In this document: positions 109-11,101 of the stretch, piece by piece
Numbering within the stretch: position 1 is the stretch's first letter
How the letters are laid out: each line of letters starts with the position of its first letter
NCBI RefSeq assembly: GCF_000330505.1
Contig: NW_004443520.1
Coordinates: 86,569 to 97,850 of the forward strand
From: Entamoeba invadens IP1
Lineage: Eukaryota > Evosea > Mastigamoebida > Endamoebidae
DNA: 11,282 nucleotides
Reading direction: 5' to 3'
Notes under the pieces: generated by a model
What the model saw: the letters and a program-made list of their open reading frames with translations, nothing else
Databases searched by the model: none
What the model was told of the DNA's origin: nothing
Position numbers and translations under genes: made by a program

Positions 109-1400
109 GTTAAAAGACTGACTCTAGTATAATACTTTTTTAATTAAGTCATTGCGTCGTCATCCACAATTATTATACAGCAACTTTTTGTTAATAATAT
201 ATACAATTGTTATCAATTTATTATTTTATTTTTACTTGCTTATCATGATATTTTTTCATCTCACAACACACAAAATCAAACCATTGTATTTCTATAACAT
301 TACAACAATTATGATTGTTGTTATTTTAAAGAAATACATTACAACAAAAGCAAAATAAAGACTAATTTGATTGTTACTTGTTGATGATTTTATAAAAATT
401 CAAAAAATTTACTGTTTATTTTAAACTTCTATTAAAAATATAATACAATTTAAATAAAACATTAAAACTTTTAAACTTTTAAATGTGTAACTACATACTA
501 ACAACGAAAAGAATTCCACCAAATTAAATAATATGTATTTGTTTAGGCATAATAGAATTTTGGATTGAAATTAAAACAGATATATACATTAAATATATTA
601 AATTTGTTGTCCAATAGTTTATGACAAAATTGTACAACAACTCAAATCAATTTAATTTAAAATTAAAAATGTAAATTTTGTCAAATTTTTAATACTGATG
701 TTTTGGATACTATTTGTACCAAATAAATTTTTTCTTTACCATTTATTTCATTTTCTTTTTTCAGGTATTATGAATATAGTTAATTATGGTTTATTTTTAT
801 AATAATTTTTACAACCTTTATATAGTTGTTAAACTATGGATATACTAAACATAATTTTTTAAATGAGTATAGTTTGTTTTATAGTAAAACGACGAATATT
901 TAATTTTAAATAGTTAAAGTGAGTTACTTTATGCCAAGGTGAGTTAATAGCCAATACTGATAAATATTTTTTGTCGTTTTAATTATAAAAAGATATACAA
1001 TATTATTATTTATAACTTATAAAATAATTTAAGATTATAATAGTTTGATAATAAATAAACAATTTATATCGAAACCAAGATAAATTCATGTTATACGTTA
1101 AAAAAATAATATCGATATTTTGTTAAGCCAATTATAAAGAATGTATTATAAACAATATTATTTTAATTGAAAATATTAATACAATAATCATTATTTATTT
1201 ATTTCGAATATATTCATGGTGTTATAAAACCCTTATTAAATTTGATTTATTATTAACAAAAAATTAATTATTATAAAATATAGTATATTATCTGTAGTTT
1301 AAAAAAACGACAACCACAATCTTTCAATTGTTATTAAAATAATTTATTTTCATTAAATAAATATTAAGATAACACAATCTAAATAAATCAAATATTGTTT
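98..1400. other. AT-rich intergenic region and upstream region of the receptor kinase gene
   Basis: I see no convincing gene here. Stops are dense in all frames, and the 68-codon open stretch at 152-358 lacks an ATG at its start and is low-complexity (Ile/Leu/Tyr/Phe from AT-rich DNA). A direct repeat GTGAGTTA occurs at 919-926 and 939-946. The bases just before the kinase ATG include a TTAAATAAATATT stretch near 1353 and AAATCA at 1385-1390, which could serve as a weak TATA-like element and initiator, but neither is a clean match to the Entamoeba consensus. No tRNA or rRNA was recognised. Confidence 0.6.
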
Positions 1401-4400
1401 ATGGTTTATATCAATTTCCCACTATTTTTGATTTTATGTTTATTAAATAGAACTTTGTCCGTGGTGTGTAATTCTGGGCAGTATCAATCTGGCAATTCAT
1501 GTTTTCCGTGTTCTCCTGGTACATTTTCAACTGGTTCAGTTACTAAATGCACTCCATGTAGTATGGGCTACTACAGCCGATATTCTGGTTCTGCTGTGTG
1601 TACACCTTGTCAAAGTGGGACTTATTCTTCAAGTAGTGGATCAATGACTTGTTCATCATGTAATGCTGGATATTACTCGGGCTCGGCTTCATCTTCTTGT
1701 AGACAATGTTCTGAGGGTACTTATTCGTCATATGGAGCGTCGACGTGCACCAGTTGTAGTGCTGGGACTTATTCTAGTTCTTCGGGCTCTTCTGTTTGTA
1801 AGAATTGTGACGCTGGTTCTTACTCAAGAAGTGGAGCTACGTCATGTTCCTTATGCCAACCGGGGACTTACTCAACTGGTGGATCTGTATCTTGTTCATA
1901 TTGTCCTTCTGGATATTATTCTGCTTATTCTGGTTCGATTAGATGTGATGCATGTGAAGGTGGGACTTATTCAGCATACGGTGGATCAAACTCATGCACA
2001 ACATGTCGTGCAGGGACATATTCAAATAAAGGAGCCTCCTCTTGTTCCCAATGTCCAACAGGGTCTTATTCTCCAGAAAGTAGTTCTCGGTGTATTTATT
2101 GTCCCCCAGGAACATATACAGACAAAGCCGGAAGTTCAACATGTTACGATTGTAAAGTCGGTTCTTATTCACAAGAAGGATTTTCTGTATGTCGAAATTG
2201 CACTTCGAATAGTTGTCAGACGTGTTCGTCAACTACTGGCGATTGCACCGGATGCAATCCTGGATTTTCATACGACGCTACAAATTATAAATGCACGGTC
2301 TGTCCCGCTTCTTATTACTCAATAGGAGGGAAATCAAAATGCTCAAAATGCCAAACAAATTATTACTCCATAATAGGATCTTCTGTGTGTCTGATGTGCC
2401 CAAGTACATGTGAAACGTGTGATCAAACCAATGGAAATTGTCTTACATGTTTAAATGGATTCACTTTAAAAGATGGAAAATGTGATACATGTGAGGCTGG
2501 CACATATTCATATAACGGCATTTGTTTATCATGTCCAGATTTGACTTATTCTGTGATGGGAAGTATTGAATGTGCAATTTGTGACTCTTCTTGCAAAAGT
2601 TGTGATAAAACAAATGGGTATTGCACTTCTTGTGAATCAGGAATGGGTATTTCGGATAAAAAATGTGCGAATTGCCCAGCCGGGTCTTTTAGTAATTCAA
2701 GTTTTCTATGCGAAGAATGTCCAATTGGGGCTTATTCATCAACTCAAAAAAGTTCAACTTGCATTTCATGCTCCGATGGTACTTATTCCAATATAAAAGG
2801 ATCACAAAAATGTCAAAAATGTAATTTACTTTGTCGAAGTGCTTGTGATAAGTTGACTGGATATTGTACAAATTGTATAGATGGTACAGTGTTATCAAAT
2901 GGCATTTGTATTGAATGCAAGGCTGGCACAAAATCGAACCAAACGACAAATGTATGTGAAACATGTCCTTCAGGTACTTATTCATTGGATCGCTCAACAG
3001 ATTGTAAAAGTTGTGAAGAGATGAAATATTCCCTTTCGGGTGCTTCTTCTTGTTCAAGTTGTGATTCAAAATGTGACGGATGTACAGTCACAACTGGCGA
3101 TTGCATCAATTGTATATCTGGATATGGTTTGTCTTCTGGAAAATGCACCATCTGTCCAGTGGGTACTTATTATCTTGATTCCTCATGTAAAAGTTGTGAA
3201 GCAATGAAGTACCAAAATACTGAAGGCCAAACTACTTGTACAAACTGTGACATTTCTTGTAAAAGTTGTGATGCAAAAAGTGGATATTGTTTAACATGTT
3301 TTGCTGGTTATGGGTTTAACAGTGGCATTTGTACACAATGTAATGACCTTACTTACTCTATTGGAGGAACTTCAAAGTGTTTGGACTGTTCCGATGAATG
3401 CAAAAGTTGTGACCCAATCAATGGCGCTTGCACTTCTTGTGAGCCGGGTAACAAAAAAGTTGGAGAGAGTTGCATCTCGTGTTCTTCAACAGGCAATTGC
3501 AATTCTTGTACCAATGAGACTTCTGATGGTGTTTGTACTTTATGTAAAGAAGGAACATTTTTGGATGAAAATCACAATTGTTTGCCTTGCAGTGATATCC
3601 ATCTTAAATGTTCGACGTGTTCAAAAATGTCAAAGGAGTGTTTTTCCTGTTCAGATAATTTGATAACAAATGGAGAGATGTGTATTTCTTGTGAAGAAGG
3701 AAAAGTCAAAAGCACAGAAACAACATGTGTATATTCATATGAAGCGATTTCAAGGTGTCAAATAGCCGATTATATAAATAATGAACAAATCTGTTTAAAA
3801 TGTTTTGCACCATATTGTGTATCAGAAAATAAAAAGATGTGCAATTTGGCGTATACAAATACAACATATTATAATAATGAATTATTTAACACTTCTATTA
3901 ACATGAATGGATGCATTAATCAAATTGGAGAATTGTGTTACTTGTGTAAATGGGCGTATGTATTGATTGAAAATAAATGTCATAACTACAGTATTCCATG
4001 CATGAAATATTCTCATAATGGTTGTGACAAATGTTTATTTGATATTATTACAACAACTGGAGTGTGTACAAATGCAAAAGATTGCAAATATACATACAAC
4101 AATAAAAACGAAACTACGTGTTTGTATTGTGATGATGACATTTTATGCGGCGAATCAAAAGAAAATTGTGTTGTGTCAAATAACAAATATTGTTATAAAA
4201 GTGTAAATAATTTTTACTCAACTTTAAGCGGTGATATTAAAGATTGTGTAAATTCAATTTGTGTGTTTTCAAATAGTATTTTAACAAATTTAAAATGTTC
4301 TGCTGACTATATTTTAAGTAATAATATTTGTGTACCAGATGTTGAATGTTTGAATATTACTGGAAGTACTTGTATTCATTGTTCAAAAAATCACCACATA

Positions 4401-6797
4401 ACAGATGGAATATGTACATTGAATGATATTAATTGTGTAACTCAAAATGGTAATATTTGTATTACATGTGAAAATTCGATCAACATAAACGGGAAATGTG
4501 TTGATATTTCAACATTACAATGTTCTAATTTTGACAAAATATGTATTGAGTGTAAGTTTGGGTATTATAAAGATGTTGACGGCTGTAAAGAAAAGAGTTT
4601 GATATATTTGAATTGTGAAATTGTATCTTCATTAAATTCTAAGTGTCTTGAATGTGAAACTGGATTCATACTCAATAATAATTCCTGTGTAAAACAAGAA
4701 GAATCAAATCAAACAGAACTCAATTTTTCATATCCAAATTTATTAACTAAAAGTATATCAAAAAGTGAAGAACCGACTTATAGTAATTATTGTGAAGAAA
4801 TTACTTCAAAAGGGTGTATTCGTTGTATGACAGGATATTATCTTTCAAATGGCAATTGCAAAGTCTGTGAATATCCGTGTGTTTTCTGTTCAAATCAGAC
4901 GTATTGCACCAAATGTGATTCATATTCATATGCAGATAACAAAGGTGTTTGCACTGAAATTAATGTACTTGTATCTGTTTGTGAAGTATTGATGTCCACA
5001 TATCGAGGGTGTGTAGTCTGCAAAGATGGGTTCATGAGGAACATAGATGGGACGTCGTGTATACCATGTGATGTTTCTTGTAAGACATGTACAAATGATG
5101 GAAATTGTATTCTTTGTAATGATTCATATTATCGAACTTCATCCACTTCATCAAAATATTGTTCTCCCCAAAGTGAGTTAATTGGATGTATAAATAAAAC
5201 AACTGAAGGGTGTACGCAATGTGAAACTGGGTATTATTTATCATCGAATTTATGTTTAAATTGTGAGAGCAATTGTACACATTGTGAAGGAAAAAATGAG
5301 TGTATTTCATGTATAGATACAAATGTTTTGATAACAGGAAATTGTTTTCACTATTCTTATATTGACAATTGTGTTAAGTCTTTAGATAGCAAATGTTCAA
5401 AATGTAATGACCAGTTTAAATTGAGTGAAGACAAATTAAGTTGTATAGACTCAACCAATTATGGTGTTATCATAGGAATTCCAATTACTGTAGTTATTAT
5501 TGTTATTATATTTATTATAATAATAATTATAGTAACAATAACTATTGTAATTAATCTCAAAGAAACTAAAAAGATGAAGAACGTCTGTGTATTTAAAATT
5601 AATCGTTCTAATATTTCAATGAGTGTTTTGGAAAACAATATTTTGACAAACAAACAGTCTCTAACATTCACAGATATTTCAGATACACTTCCAGTTGGAT
5701 CTGAAAGTCGTGAATTGTTATGTCTTGGTAACAAAGGAAAAGGTATTTTAAAAATTCAAATGACAACACGTGGCGGGTGTGACAAATATTCGATACGAAC
5801 AGAGCCGCAGTTAGTTACACTCAAAAAGGGTGAAGCGTGCGAATTTGAAGTCTTTTTAACACCATTTTGCACTATGAAATTGCACGATGAAATAATGATA
5901 GTGGCTATGGATATTGAAAAGGGTGAAATGTCATCAGTCCCAATTTCAATTACACTGACCACAGAGAACTCAACACGACTGGATTACGACGAGTTGATTG
6001 AAAATATTAAATTAGGAGAAGGATCTTTTGGAATCGTTTTCAAAGGGACTTATAGAGGAAATACAGTTGCTATTAAAAAGATGAAGCAAGCAACTTTAGA
6101 CAAAGAAGAGAAAGCAAAACAAGAGTTTGAGAATGAAGTTTCTATGTTAGACAAATTTAGGAGTGATCACATCGTCCACTTCTATGGTGCCGTTTTTATA
6201 CCAAATAAGATATGTATGGTCACCGAATTTGCTCAATTTGGAAGTATTGCAGATTTAATGAAAAAGAAGAGGAGTGAGCTCCCAAGAATGAAGACAAGAA
6301 CTAAATTTATTTCAGAGTGTGCTAAAGGAATATTGTATTTACACTCAAATGGGATTTTACACAGAGATATTAAGCCAGATAATATTCTCGTATTCTCATT
6401 GGATTTAAATGAAAAAGTAAATGCTAAATTGACTGATTTTGGAAGTAGTAGAAACATCAACTTGTTGATGACTAACATGACCTTCACTAAAGGTATTGGA
6501 ACTCCAGTCTATATGGCACCTGAAGTGTTACAAAAAGAAAAATATACTAAAGCGGCTGATATATACTCACTTGCTATCACCATGTATGAAGTATTTAGTT
6601 GGAAAGAAGCTTATAATAAAACTGAATTTAAGTTTCCTTGGAAAATAGCAGAGTTTGTTATTGGAAAAAATAGATTAAAAATAGCCGAGCCAATTCAAGA
6701 AGACCAATTTCTGCTTATTGAAAAATGTTGGTGCCACAACCACAAAAGTCGACCCAATGCCGAGAGTGTTGTACAACAGCTTGAAAATATAATGTAA
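1401..6797 (+). CDS. Cys-rich transmembrane receptor kinase (Entamoeba TMK type, TKL-like)
   Basis: This is a predicted surface receptor that passes an outside signal to a cytoplasmic protein kinase; the ligand is unknown. It has 1798 residues and no intron. The ATG at 1401 is chosen because TAA at 1380-1382 is in frame upstream with no ATG between; the TTG at 1395 is not a plausible eukaryotic start. Residues 1 to about 20 form a signal peptide. Residues 23-267 are short tandem Cys repeats. Residues 268-776 hold furin/EGF-like CxxC modules, and 777 to about 1350 hold looser Cys modules. A single membrane helix spans about 1356-1384. Residues about 1430-1522 form a beta-rich cytoplasmic domain. 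The kinase covers about 1536-1796: GEGSFG loop 1539-1544, VAIK Lys1559, probable alpha-C Glu1579, HRDIKPDN with Asp1656, DFG with Asp1679, APE 1706-1708, and a late CW...RP motif. All catalytic residues are present. HRDIKPDN and the CW...RP motif suggest a TKL Ser/Thr kinase rather than a true tyrosine kinase. It ends in tandem stops TAA TAA. Large families of such kinases are known in Entamoeba; the exact subgroup is not assigned. Confidence 0.93.
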   Translation: MVYINFPLFLILCLLNRTLSVVCNSGQYQSGNSCFPCSPGTFSTGSVTKCTPCSMGYYSRYSGSAVCTPCQSGTYSSSSGSMTCSSCNAGYYSGSASSSCRQCSEGTYSSYGASTCTSCSAGTYSSSSGSSVCKNCDAGSYSRSGATSCSLCQPGTYSTGGSVSCSYCPSGYYSAYSGSIRCDACEGGTYSAYGGSNSCTTCRAGTYSNKGASSCSQCPTGSYSPESSSRCIYCPPGTYTDKAGSSTCYDCKVGSYSQEGFSVCRNCTSNSCQTCSSTTGDCTGCNPGFSYDATNYKCTVCPASYYSIGGKSKCSKCQTNYYSIIGSSVCLMCPSTCETCDQTNGNCLTCLNGFTLKDGKCDTCEAGTYSYNGICLSCPDLTYSVMGSIECAICDSSCKSCDKTNGYCTSCESGMGISDKKCANCPAGSFSNSSFLCEECPIGAYSSTQKSSTCISCSDGTYSNIKGSQKCQKCNLLCRSACDKLTGYCTNCIDGTVLSNGICIECKAGTKSNQTTNVCETCPSGTYSLDRSTDCKSCEEMKYSLSGASSCSSCDSKCDGCTVTTGDCINCISGYGLSSGKCTICPVGTYYLDSSCKSCEAMKYQNTEGQTTCTNCDISCKSCDAKSGYCLTCFAGYGFNSGICTQCNDLTYSIGGTSKCLDCSDECKSCDPINGACTSCEPGNKKVGESCISCSSTGNCNSCTNETSDGVCTLCKEGTFLDENHNCLPCSDIHLKCSTCSKMSKECFSCSDNLITNGEMCISCEEGKVKSTETTCVYSYEAISRCQIADYINNEQICLKCFAPYCVSENKKMCNLAYTNTTYYNNELFNTSINMNGCINQIGELCYLCKWAYVLIENKCHNYSIPCMKYSHNGCDKCLFDIITTTGVCTNAKDCKYTYNNKNETTCLYCDDDILCGESKENCVVSNNKYCYKSVNNFYSTLSGDIKDCVNSICVFSNSILTNLKCSADYILSNNICVPDVECLNITGSTCIHCSKNHHITDGICTLNDINCVTQNGNICITCENSININGKCVDISTLQCSNFDKICIECKFGYYKDVDGCKEKSLIYLNCEIVSSLNSKCLECETGFILNNNSCVKQEESNQTELNFSYPNLLTKSISKSEEPTYSNYCEEITSKGCIRCMTGYYLSNGNCKVCEYPCVFCSNQTYCTKCDSYSYADNKGVCTEINVLVSVCEVLMSTYRGCVVCKDGFMRNIDGTSCIPCDVSCKTCTNDGNCILCNDSYYRTSSTSSKYCSPQSELIGCINKTTEGCTQCETGYYLSSNLCLNCESNCTHCEGKNECISCIDTNVLITGNCFHYSYIDNCVKSLDSKCSKCNDQFKLSEDKLSCIDSTNYGVIIGIPITVVIIVIIFIIIIIIVTITIVINLKETKKMKNVCVFKINRSNISMSVLENNILTNKQSLTFTDISDTLPVGSESRELLCLGNKGKGILKIQMTTRGGCDKYSIRTEPQLVTLKKGEACEFEVFLTPFCTMKLHDEIMIVAMDIEKGEMSSVPISITLTTENSTRLDYDELIENIKLGEGSFGIVFKGTYRGNTVAIKKMKQATLDKEEKAKQEFENEVSMLDKFRSDHIVHFYGAVFIPNKICMVTEFAQFGSIADLMKKKRSELPRMKTRTKFISECAKGILYLHSNGILHRDIKPDNILVFSLDLNEKVNAKLTDFGSSRNINLLMTNMTFTKGIGTPVYMAPEVLQKEKYTKAADIYSLAITMYEVFSWKEAYNKTEFKFPWKIAEFVIGKNRLKIAEPIQEDQFLLIEKCWCHNHKSRPNAESVVQQLENIM
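1467..2201 (+). repeat. Coding tandem array of 14 Cys-x-x-Cys-x-x-Gly-Thr-Tyr-Ser units
   Basis: These bases encode residues 23-267 of the receptor kinase. After one partial unit, 14 units of about 16-17 residues follow the pattern CxxCxxG[TYS][YF]S, then a Ser/Gly-rich stretch, then the next Cys pair. The pattern resembles the GCC2/GCC3 (ephrin-receptor-like) and TNFR-like short Cys repeats. At DNA level, variants of GGGACTTATTC recur near 1617, 1765, 1863 and 1963. A second forward frame stays open for 220 codons across the array only because the units repeat. Confidence 0.85.
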
Positions 6798-7287: not shown

Positions 7288-7719
7288 TTAATTGGGATTA
7301 AATGGGGCTTGGAAAAAATATTGTTGATTGTTTCCATTATTTCCAAAAACCGAATTGGCTCCAAGTTTATATGTGAACTCCTTTGGAAATTTGGATCTAG
7401 CTACATCCACTCCAAGTTTGTAAGTACCTGCTCTTAAAAAATTTTCTTTTTCTCTTTTAAAACCTTTGACAAAATCAATAGTCCCATAGTTTTCAAATCC
7501 TTCATAAAATTCACCTATAAATTTTTTACCTCCAAACTCGATTTCCGCTTTTGTGTAATTGTAATCCGCGGTCATCTTGAATAAAAACCGGATCGAATCA
7601 TCATACAGATCAAATCCAGAGTTATCAATTCTAAACCCAATTGGGCAATCTTCAAGGAGTAAGTCATATTCAATTTCCTGAGATAATATTTCAAATACAA
7701 ATAATGACAACAGTAACAT
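7288..7719 (-). CDS. Small secreted protein, unknown family
   Basis: The product has 143 residues. Residues 1 to about 13 are a short hydrophobic leader (MLLLSLFVFEILS), followed by an acidic start of the mature chain, so it probably enters the secretory pathway. A TAA codon lies directly before the ATG in frame, so the start is firm. The mature part alternates short beta-type stretches with charged turns. It has one Cys (25), a likely N-glycosylation sequon at Asn54 (NYT), and a C-terminal Asn/Gln/Gly-rich tail with no membrane anchor or KDEL-like signal. It is transcribed away from the next gene, with 533 bases between the starts. The stretch DF...AGTY...F.Y..KL lines up loosely with the same region of that neighbour, which suggests but does not prove a distant paralogue. 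I do not recognise the family; a GOLD-like or other beta-sandwich fold is conceivable. Confidence 0.7.
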   Translation of the reverse strand: MLLLSLFVFEILSQEIEYDLLLEDCPIGFRIDNSGFDLYDDSIRFLFKMTADYNYTKAEIEFGGKKFIGEFYEGFENYGTIDFVKGFKREKENFLRAGTYKLGVDVARSKFPKEFTYKLGANSVFGNNGNNQQYFFQAPFNPN

Positions 7720-8252: not shown

Positions 8253-8651
8253 ATGGTTGTTTATTTTTTATTTTTTGCTGTTACTTATGCGATAGTAACA
8301 CCCCTGAATTTTACTGTGTCTCAAAAAGGAGCTTGGGTTCAAAAAGCCAAAATTAAAAAATTGGTTCTTAATTACAATTTCACTTCAATACTTGAAGTTA
8401 TTAATCCAAATGTATATGCTGCAAAATTGAACGTTACAGCAGAAAGATATGTTGGAGGTGAAAAACAAGACTCTCAATTGCTTGATCATTCTGATGTTGA
8501 TTTTTCAAAAGAACCATATCAAAAAGTATTTCAAGTTGGTCCAACATACATTAATAAAGAAGGTACTTTTATCATTTATTACAATCTTCAGTATTTTTCT
8601 GGATCAACTTTTGACTATACCTGCAAAATGGCTTCTTATATTCCAAAATAA
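8253..8651 (+). CDS. Small secreted protein with LEA_2/TMEM106-like beta-sandwich features
   Basis: The product has 132 residues. Residues 1 to about 14 are a hydrophobic leader (MVVYFLFFAVTYAI). The start is fixed by the promoter just upstream and by an in-frame TAG at 8232-8234. The mature chain has three N-glycosylation sequons (Asn19, Asn42, Asn60) and one Cys (124). Residues about 46-70 read as a beta strand, then Asn-Pro-Asn, then a strand ending in a Val-Gly-Gly turn. That arrangement is typical of the LEA_2/WHy domain, and a later Tyr-Phe-x-Gly followed by an aromatic strand and Cys recalls the TMEM106 luminal end. The family call is my pattern reading, not a search result. There is no second membrane segment, so the protein is probably luminal or secreted. 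Its role is unknown. It is divergent from the gene at 7288-7719 and may be its distant relative. An AT-rich TAATTG/TAATTC stretch follows the stop. Confidence 0.75.
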   Translation: MVVYFLFFAVTYAIVTPLNFTVSQKGAWVQKAKIKKLVLNYNFTSILEVINPNVYAAKLNVTAERYVGGEKQDSQLLDHSDVDFSKEPYQKVFQVGPTYINKEGTFIIYYNLQYFSGSTFDYTCKMASYIPK

Positions 8652-9232: not shown

Positions 9233-10738
9233 ATGAAAGGAACCAAACCAACTGACATTAAGACTTCCGAAGAAATGGCCGAAGTTGAAAAGTGCACTAC
9301 TGAAACGTTTTTCATCTTGCACAAAATGGTTCCAAATTATAAAACTCTGAACAGTGCATTAGAACAATATTACAAATCCCAATCCGCCATGATAAAATCA
9401 ACAGACATATTGACATCTGCACTTGAGAATATGTCTGATTTAGTCACACCAAGTGGTGAAACAATTCACCAAGACCTTTCCATTGGTGTGAAGAACATTT
9501 GTGAAGTCTTTAAGTTGTGGAAGACCAATTTAAAAGAGATCAACGACGTCTTCAAAGAGTCGATGTCGATCATCAAATGTGACATGAGTGGGTTTTCCAA
9601 AGAAGTTGACACTTGTGAGAAAGAAGCTAAGACAACAAAGTCCGACCGTTTAAAAGAGTGTTTAAAAACAGAGAAGAAGCTCGAGGACTTTTCCAAGCAC
9701 CCTAAATTAGTCGCAGACGATCCAAAAGGCTTTGCTGAGTCTGTTAAAAACGTTTCGATCACCAAGTCAGAACTTCAAAAGGTGCAGATGGCAAGTCTAA
9801 AGAAATCCATCACAATACTAAGAGAGACATACGGACAACTCTTTGATTGCTTTAAAAAGGTCTTTACTAAGAAGGATGAGTGCGACGACAAGTCTAAAGA
9901 GATTATCAGTGAACAAATGGACTCAATGAGGAAGCTTATTAGTACCTCAAAAATCATGCCCAAGAAATACAGAAATTTGATTTCTATGAAGAAGCAAATT
10001 TTAATTAATACGACGTGGTTGTCCCCAAAACTCAAATCAATTTTAAAGGCTGCAAAGGTCAAACCAAGATTTTTGGCAGAACCAGAAGTCCTCGAGGCTC
10101 TTTTGGTGACGGTCAGAGAAGCAGCAGCACAAGGAAAAATATCAAAGGAGTCTCTCGAGTCACTTGAAGCTTCTATGGCTAACAAAGAAGACAAAGCTAT
10201 TACTGCAGTCAGTGCAAATAAATTGACAAAAAGTACTTTAAAGAGAAGACAATCGATGAGATATTTAAAGGAGGGACTTGACAAAGATATGTTACAAAAA
10301 GAAATTGAAAGAAGAAAATCGATTACAGAGAAAGATAAACCTACTGGAACTCCACAAGTCATTGAAACAGTAAAAGAAGAGACTAAACCAATAAATTCAG
10401 ATGAAGAAAAGACGCAACTTAAAGTTAAAAATGTTGATAAGAAGACTGAAAAATTGGAAGATAATACAGAAGAAAAACCAATAGAGAAAATCGTTGAGGA
10501 TGTTGCAGATAAAGTAAAAGCAAAAGTTGATGAAGTAAAAATAGAAAAACAAAATGAAGTAATAAATGAAGTAAAACCAAAAACTGTTGTTGTTCAAAAC
10601 GAAGTCAAAAATGAAACAAATAATGAAGTACGAAATGAAATAAAAAATGAAGCGAAAATCGAAGAACCAAAAGTTGAAGAAAAAGTCAACGAAAGTGCTA
10701 CCGTTAAAACAGAACATGTACATATTGAAAAGAAATAA
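9233..10738 (+). CDS. BAR/I-BAR (IMD)-like protein with charged linker; N-terminal half of a putative Arp2/3 activator
   Basis: The frame codes for 501 residues up to TAA at 10736-10738. An in-frame stop just before the ATG fixes the start. Residues about 15-235 are almost wholly helical, with basic and acidic faces and a spacing of Phe, Tyr-Tyr, Ala-Leu and Met that resembles the IRSp53/MIM (IMD) or BAR fold. Such domains dimerise and bind curved membrane. Residues about 245-300 are Lys-rich, and about 285-330 are again helical (EALL...REAAAQGK). Two basophilic phosphosite motifs follow: RRQS (Ser341) and RRKS (Ser363). Residues about 370-501 are a Glu/Lys/Val-rich, low-complexity linker with NE[VTIA][KR] repeats. 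The same frame continues past the TAA into polyproline and a VCA module, so this is probably one gene with an unusual stop. The membrane-domain call is by pattern only and could instead be a plain coiled coil. Confidence 0.78.
   Translation: MKGTKPTDIKTSEEMAEVEKCTTETFFILHKMVPNYKTLNSALEQYYKSQSAMIKSTDILTSALENMSDLVTPSGETIHQDLSIGVKNICEVFKLWKTNLKEINDVFKESMSIIKCDMSGFSKEVDTCEKEAKTTKSDRLKECLKTEKKLEDFSKHPKLVADDPKGFAESVKNVSITKSELQKVQMASLKKSITILRETYGQLFDCFKKVFTKKDECDDKSKEIISEQMDSMRKLISTSKIMPKKYRNLISMKKQILINTTWLSPKLKSILKAAKVKPRFLAEPEVLEALLVTVREAAAQGKISKESLESLEASMANKEDKAITAVSANKLTKSTLKRRQSMRYLKEGLDKDMLQKEIERRKSITEKDKPTGTPQVIETVKEETKPINSDEEKTQLKVKNVDKKTEKLEDNTEEKPIEKIVEDVADKVKAKVDEVKIEKQNEVINEVKPKTVVVQNEVKNETNNEVRNEIKNEAKIEEPKVEEKVNESATVKTEHVHIEKK
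10553..10654 (+). repeat. Coding low-complexity repeat (Asn-Glu-Val-Lys type)
   Basis: Units of AATGAAGTA-like sequence recur in frame at 10553, 10565, 10598, 10610, 10622, 10634 and 10646. They encode Asn-Glu followed by Val, Thr, Ile or Ala and often Lys or Arg. The array is a flexible charged linker and a likely site of replication slippage. It ends about 80 bases before the in-frame TAA. Confidence 0.7.
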
Positions 10739-11101
10739 GAAAACGTTTTACCACCACTTGAATTGTTACCACCACCCGGGTTATTACCTCCACCTATTTG
10801 TCCACAACAACAAATCGAAAAAACAACAAAACCGATAAGTAATAAAAAGGCAGTGGTTTTAAATGTAAAAATAGAAGAAGTTAAACCAAAAAAAGATAAT
10901 AACAACAGCGAAAACATTTTGGATCAAATTAAAAAAGGATTCAAACTTAAAAAAGTCGACCAGACTGTACAAAAACAACCAAAAGAAGAAGATAAAAACG
11001 ACGTCGTGCAGATGCTTGTGAAAGCTATGAACATGAGAAGAGTTGATATTCAAAACGACTCGTCTGAAGATGGAGAAGAAGAGTCTGATTGGAGTGCTTA
11101 G
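10739..11101 (+). CDS. Polyproline-WH2-central-acidic (VCA) module, in frame with the upstream BAR-like gene
   Basis: This stretch has 120 codons with no ATG near its beginning and is in the same frame as the 9233 gene, directly after its TAA. Numbered from the 9233 ATG, residues 507-524 are proline-rich (three Pro clusters, a profilin- or SH3-binding type). Residues 559-576 are a WH2 actin-binding motif: Leu563, Ile566, Gly569 and Leu572 followed by LysLysVal. Residues 590-607 form an amphipathic central segment ending in ArgArg, and 609-622 are acidic with the near-terminal Asp-Trp (Trp620) that contacts Arp2/3. This is the WASP/SCAR VCA arrangement, which delivers an actin monomer and activates Arp2/3. 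It ends in TAG followed by TAA. Its intact order argues for ongoing selection. It may be expressed by stop readthrough, by a splice I cannot see, or from an internal Met; otherwise the TAA is a sequencing error or a recent null mutation. Confidence 0.72.
   Translation, partial: ENVLPPLELLPPPGLLPPPICPQQQIEKTTKPISNKKAVVLNVKIEEVKPKKDNNNSENILDQIKKGFKLKKVDQTVQKQPKEEDKNDVVQMLVKAMNMRRVDIQNDSSEDGEEESDWSA

Follow-up and report, generated by a model that had tools for sequence, protein, structure and literature searches.

A probable WAML gene of Entamoeba invadens carries an in-frame TAA just before its proline-rich region

A locus within an 11,282-nucleotide stretch of DNA from Entamoeba invadens IP1 (hereafter the window) raises the question whether an I-BAR/BAR-like domain and a WASP-family VCA module are joined there in one polypeptide, as a preliminary description had claimed. 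The elements on which that reading was built, a long helical N-terminal domain, a charged linker, proline clusters, the WH2 motif ILDQIKKGFKLKKV, the central segment VVQMLVKAMNMRRVDI and the acidic tail EEESDW, are all present in frame from the ATG at 9233 to the TAG at 11099-11101. The same reading frame is indeed kept throughout, but it comprises two open frames of 501 amino acids and 120 codons: codon 502 is a TAA (10736-10738), behind which reading resumes open over 10739-11101. This TAA splits the two halves, and the single chain is not encoded by the window copy; the earlier residue numbers (555-622 of 622) had counted the TAA as residue 502. The matched 622-codon frame contains this one TAA internally, and everything from the proline clusters through WH2 and the central segment to the acidic tail lies 3' of it (Table 1).

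The architecture as such had already been described in Entamoeba, which answers a question that the preliminary description had left open. Kollmar et al. 2012 (PMC3298513) named proteins combining I-BAR and VCA in one chain WAML (WASP and MIM like) and, in the part of that paper considered here, proposed, like the preliminary description, that membrane deformation and Arp2/3 activation are united in these proteins. The locus is very probably an E. invadens WAML gene, a duplicate closest to EIN_495710, whose frame is broken by a TAA shortly ahead of the proline region. By descent it is a WAML locus; the proline region and the VCA share the frame of the I-BAR domain but follow the TAA, so that it encodes an incomplete WAML protein as read.

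Table 1. Features of the WAML locus, in window positions
Feature	Position	Strand	Remarks
ORF of 501 aa: I-BAR, putative WAID, charged linker	9233..10738	+	terminates in TAA; start aligns with the starts of relatives
I-BAR/IMD domain, about residues 10-255	9260..9997	+	
Segment at the position of Kollmar's WAID (WASP autoinhibitory domain), residues 253-321	9989..10195	+	conserved in the family; marginal WASP GBD profile match
Linker rich in Lys/Glu/Asn/Val	10196..10735	+	none seen in EIN_495710 (alignment); GC by codon position
TAA stop, in frame, dividing the two halves	10736..10738	+	
Proline-rich region, short, downstream of the TAA	10748..10795	+	
WH2 motif ILDQIKKGFKLKKV	10916..10957	+	Pfam score below cut-off, regular expression, alignment with relatives
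Central (C) segment VVQMLVKAMNMRRVDI	11003..11050	+	alignment with relatives, regular expression
Acidic tail EEESDW (Asp-Trp near the terminus) and TAG stop	11051..11101	+	

The post-stop segment is more than a chance open frame, because its codons matched the EIN_495710 locus at E 1.4e-15 and because such openness was rare when the segment was simulated with a first-order Markov model: of 20,000 runs, 9 kept the fixed frame open for 120 codons, and 17 did so for any of the three frames. A separate VCA gene beginning 3' of the TAA was rejected, since the first ATG of the post-stop frame already sits within the central segment. The linker preceding the TAA showed a GC content by codon position of 0.48/0.23/0.16, compared with 0.39/0.32/0.44 in the core. 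Read as sequenced, the window copy would yield only the 501-residue I-BAR membrane half, with the nucleator part missing; as its VCA would stay untranslated, this product could not activate Arp2/3.

The I-BAR/BAR identity proposed for the N-terminal half was borne out by profile and fold comparisons. A monomer model revealed a three-helix I-BAR fold, both kinds of comparison indicated likeness to IRSp53/BAIAP2, MIM/MTSS1 and Dictyostelium IBARa, and the 50 matches listed in a fold search with the AlphaFold model of EIN_495710 are without exception BAR-type folds. These fold results support the 2012 assignment of an IMD in WAMLs. Pfam IMD was not among the matches of the window protein, and the bit scores of the ORF at C153 and of EIN_495710 (18.9 and 21.1) both fell short of the cut-off of 26.2; sub-threshold Pfam matches of the window pieces include Rv1893 and TMP_3. 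As a single-sequence phmmer search of the 501 residues against PDB gave only one, unrelated match (E 0.04), a profile was needed for this comparison. Profile matches to the designed proteins 8g8i (E 6.4e-8; 1e-14) and 8eoz (0.0013) were judged helical-repeat likenesses and set aside.

The putative WAID segment is conserved in the family, and its profile matches to the WASP GBD were marginal (2k42, E 0.13; 1ej5, E 0.25): two designed proteins ranked above them, and one further unrelated protein ranked alongside. A CRIB motif (PF00786) was not found at E up to 1 in the two Pfam-searched pieces of the window copy; the positive control, an exon of a WAWH-like gene at C175 (L025), was detected. In this gene the PBD/CRIB exon (L025:770-1231, Pfam E 4.2e-8) is followed by a second open frame (L025:1444-1878) with a proline region and a VCA-like end, and the separating stretch starts near a GTTTGT site. 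The AlphaFold model of EIN_495710 is of low confidence at residues 333-397, 399-461 and 478-489, a short helix (464-479) being the one exception in the VCA part. Because of this low confidence the full-length model does not show autoinhibition, and it was dropped as a view of it.

The WASP-family VCA identity of the C-terminal half was likewise sustained, here by profile matches to N-WASP and WAVE1. The window VCA alone matched WAVE1 (3p8c) in PDB at E 0.018 over residues 60-118 and the whole chain of N-WASP (3m3n) at E 5.2e-6, with no individual stretch of the latter significant. A profile built from four VCA segments of E. invadens, one of them from the window, reached 2e-10 with N-WASP and 3e-7 with WAVE1, and a ten-sequence family profile, in which the row of the window copy stops at the TAA, matched WAVE1 at E 1.1e-8. 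The Pfam WH2 model scored 18.4 bits on the window copy (E 0.0018), below its cut-off of 23.1. Regular expressions applied to seven sequences (the window copy and P0001-P0006) found the central pattern in all seven, the C-terminal acidic-Trp pattern in six (P0005 ends before that region) and the WH2 pattern in four, the three misses beginning WH2 with Phe; all three motifs are retained in the post-stop segment of the window copy. Elsewhere in the genome, a 644-codon ORF at C164 (71344-72783, minus strand) contains three WH2 motifs, each above the Pfam cut-off.

The same domain order, I-BAR followed by VCA, was found uninterrupted in related Entamoeba proteins, as the preliminary description had suggested looking for. 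Six related proteins were obtained from the protein database, among them one of E. invadens, one of E. histolytica and two of E. marina; the E. marina relatives fall beyond the three species surveyed in 2012. The E. invadens IP1 protein EIN_495710 (P0001) shares 494 of 494 residues with a portion of the ORF at C153 of the window's genome, which marks this genome as E. invadens or as one that cannot be told from it at this gene. In a tree of ten core sequences the window copy pairs with EIN_495710 (support 98/99), and its terminal branch is four times longer (0.6 versus 0.14). One-sided changes numbered 58 in the window copy and 20 in EIN_495710 over 306 core columns, and 13 and 5 over 63 VCA columns; the faster rate hits both parts, so that the VCA is not singled out. 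dN was 0.64 after and 0.35 before the stop with dS saturated in both; as this leaves no usable dN/dS, selection after the stop was unmeasurable and dating of the TAA by this ratio was abandoned. The window copy is an ordinary member of the WAML family, sister to EIN_495710 and fast-evolving.

Protein searches, in which candidates were limited to 0.55-1.75 times the query length, returned one protein with the 501 residues (best identity 55%) and three with residues 1-325 (best 57%); both returned EIN_495710, and none of the candidates was identical to the window gene. In the searched assembly (34.98 Mb in 233 contigs, compared with 40.9 Mb in the published one) we found six candidate WAML loci: C58, C153, C6, C55, C172 and C114. 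The locus at C6 encodes a WAML of 419 residues without VCA (best match of the VCA query in the stretch examined there, E 0.97). The one at C114 (202118-202660, L035) is only partly alike, with 30% identity over residues 3-187 of the query; it is a diverged WAML-like I-BAR segment (30% identity to the C172 WAML over 185 residues) and showed no clear VCA match in the stretch examined (best E 0.07). With six loci found, one partly alike and one VCA-less, Kollmar's seven E. invadens WAMLs could not be paired with them one to one. A nucleotide-level search within this genome, by a tool that ignores simple repeats and very frequent words, found the locus itself and, at C153, 364 bases at 71% identity, and nothing else; a collapsed repeat as cause of the TAA was rejected, as no near-identical second copy appeared.

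Upstream in the window, an ORF of 1800 codons (1395-6797, plus strand) encodes Cys-rich repeats like those of ephrin receptors (E 4.2e-13) together with a hydrophobic stretch and a Pkinase domain (E 3.8e-53), and is a transmembrane kinase of the Entamoeba type. Two small ORFs, 7288-7719 (minus strand, 143 aa) and 8253-8651 (plus strand, 132 aa), have hydrophobic N-termini and no Pfam match at E 0.01. Beside the window at C58, both flanks (L026:252-3155 and L027:1-8569) read N.

True truncation and a base error are about equally likely explanations of the TAA. A real TAA, which we credit with close to an even chance, would mean that a relaxed duplicate has lately acquired a nonsense mutation. 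What remains would be a short I-BAR/WAID product, or else a pseudogene, and downstream of it the remnant of a VCA. The faster evolution of the window copy relative to EIN_495710, its shorter proline region and extra linker, the absence of an identical entry among the proteins searched, as if IP1 had no such protein model, and the VCA-less WAML at C6 agree with this, although the 120 post-stop codons contain no second stop, the WH2, C and DW motifs survive, the speed-up touches core and VCA alike, and the higher dN after the stop is uninformative. If instead low assembly coverage has let in a wrong base at the TAA, for which the chance seems somewhat below even, the product would be a complete WAML some 622 residues long. 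Against this, the frame is kept, so that a substitution error would be needed; in its favour, the remainder of the gene looks intact, and the TAA lies 544 bases from the right end of the window with N beyond, N runs not necessarily being gaps. The published IP-1 assembly, if the present one derives from it, comprises 40.9 Mb assembled from 160,419 paired-end Sanger reads, and in the part of their report consulted its authors mention low sequence coverage. Table 1 of Kollmar et al. marks each of its 17 WAMLs as complete and lists none as a pseudogene (PMC3298513), but the window gene is not necessarily in that set. The good preservation of the VCA half suggests that the TAA is either recent or a base error.

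That the TAA is removed with an intron, leaving an open mature mRNA, is most improbable. Introns exist in this genome, and by inspection the frame of the WAWH-like gene at C175 is broken near its GTTTGT site; in the window, 138 frame-keeping GT/GC..AG pairs 20-700 bases apart span the TAA, and three of them, one of 45 bases, keep the proline region. However, neither GTTTGT nor any of five near variants occurs in 9233-11101, the best of the 138 donors shares four of the six bases of GTTTGT, the three that keep the proline region share two or three, and the other 135 remove it. RNA-confirmed E. invadens introns bear GTTTGT, according to the portion of PMC4053983 considered. Readthrough of the TAA, giving short and long forms, is only slightly less improbable. 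It would account for halves conserved on both sides of one stop; none of the six related proteins carries such a stop, which a protein database could hardly reveal, and the RNA fold of 121 bases around it reached -7.4 kcal/mol, a value without shuffled control. Against it, other stop codons and contexts are the ones that favour readthrough. It is also unlikely that the TAA is genuine and used, either with a short I-BAR/WAID form restraining full WAMLs beside a readthrough full-length activator or as a full WAML turning short.

For full WAMLs, we infer membrane binding, WAID autoinhibition and Arp2/3 activation. An I-BAR dimer would bind the curved, acidic plasma membrane, and the WAID might hold the central helix until released; WH2 could then deliver actin while the central-acidic segment would activate Arp2/3. 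The 501-residue window product would resemble the short WAML subclass, which lacks the proline region and VCA (PMC3298513), and could compete with full WAMLs for the membrane or bind their VCA. Entamoeba is said to be without WASP and SCAR/WAVE in the consulted parts of PMC5461030 and PMC3298513, and WAMLs are candidate Arp2/3 activators of this genus. Caution on the Arp2/3 step is advisable because PMC4672914, in the part considered, credits the kinase EhAK1 with recruiting Arp2/3 to phagocytic cups in E. histolytica and describes EhARPC1 as being without the arm that binds WASP in yeast. The same source mentions a MIM homolog bearing a VCA domain in E. histolytica, and Arp2/3 activation by WAML was proposed in 2012 only as something that 'might' occur (PMC3298513). 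WAML, WAWH and IMD do not appear in the text of PMC8847673, and PMC3531509 has nothing on WAML and IRSp53 in a reference only. In the open-access titles and abstract starts searched, which mostly exclude subscription journals, no biochemical test of a WAML was found.

Among known systems, the VCA order WH2, central, acidic is shared with N-WASP and WAVE1. The N-terminal regulatory domains of these proteins are different from those of WAML, for WASP according to PMC3298513. The I-BAR fold is held in common with IRSp53/BAIAP2, MIM/MTSS1 and Dictyostelium IBARa, none of which, to our knowledge, carries a fused VCA. MIM has proline-rich regions and, in one splice form, a WH2 (PMC3298513). The closest system is WAML itself, with five genes in E. 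histolytica, five in E. dispar and seven in E. invadens according to the consulted part of the same source: it has the same N-terminal IMD, WAID position, proline region and VCA, and no CRIB. EIN_495710, the nearest relative (57% identity over the IMD and WAID core, 39% over the proline-VCA segment), differs in its single uninterrupted frame without K/E linker, whereas in the window copy a TAA precedes the proline region, which is short, and the linker is long and K/E-rich. The architecture is already known and the window copy is very probably a WAML gene; the TAA, as read, is the only new point, an annotation warning rather than a discovery.
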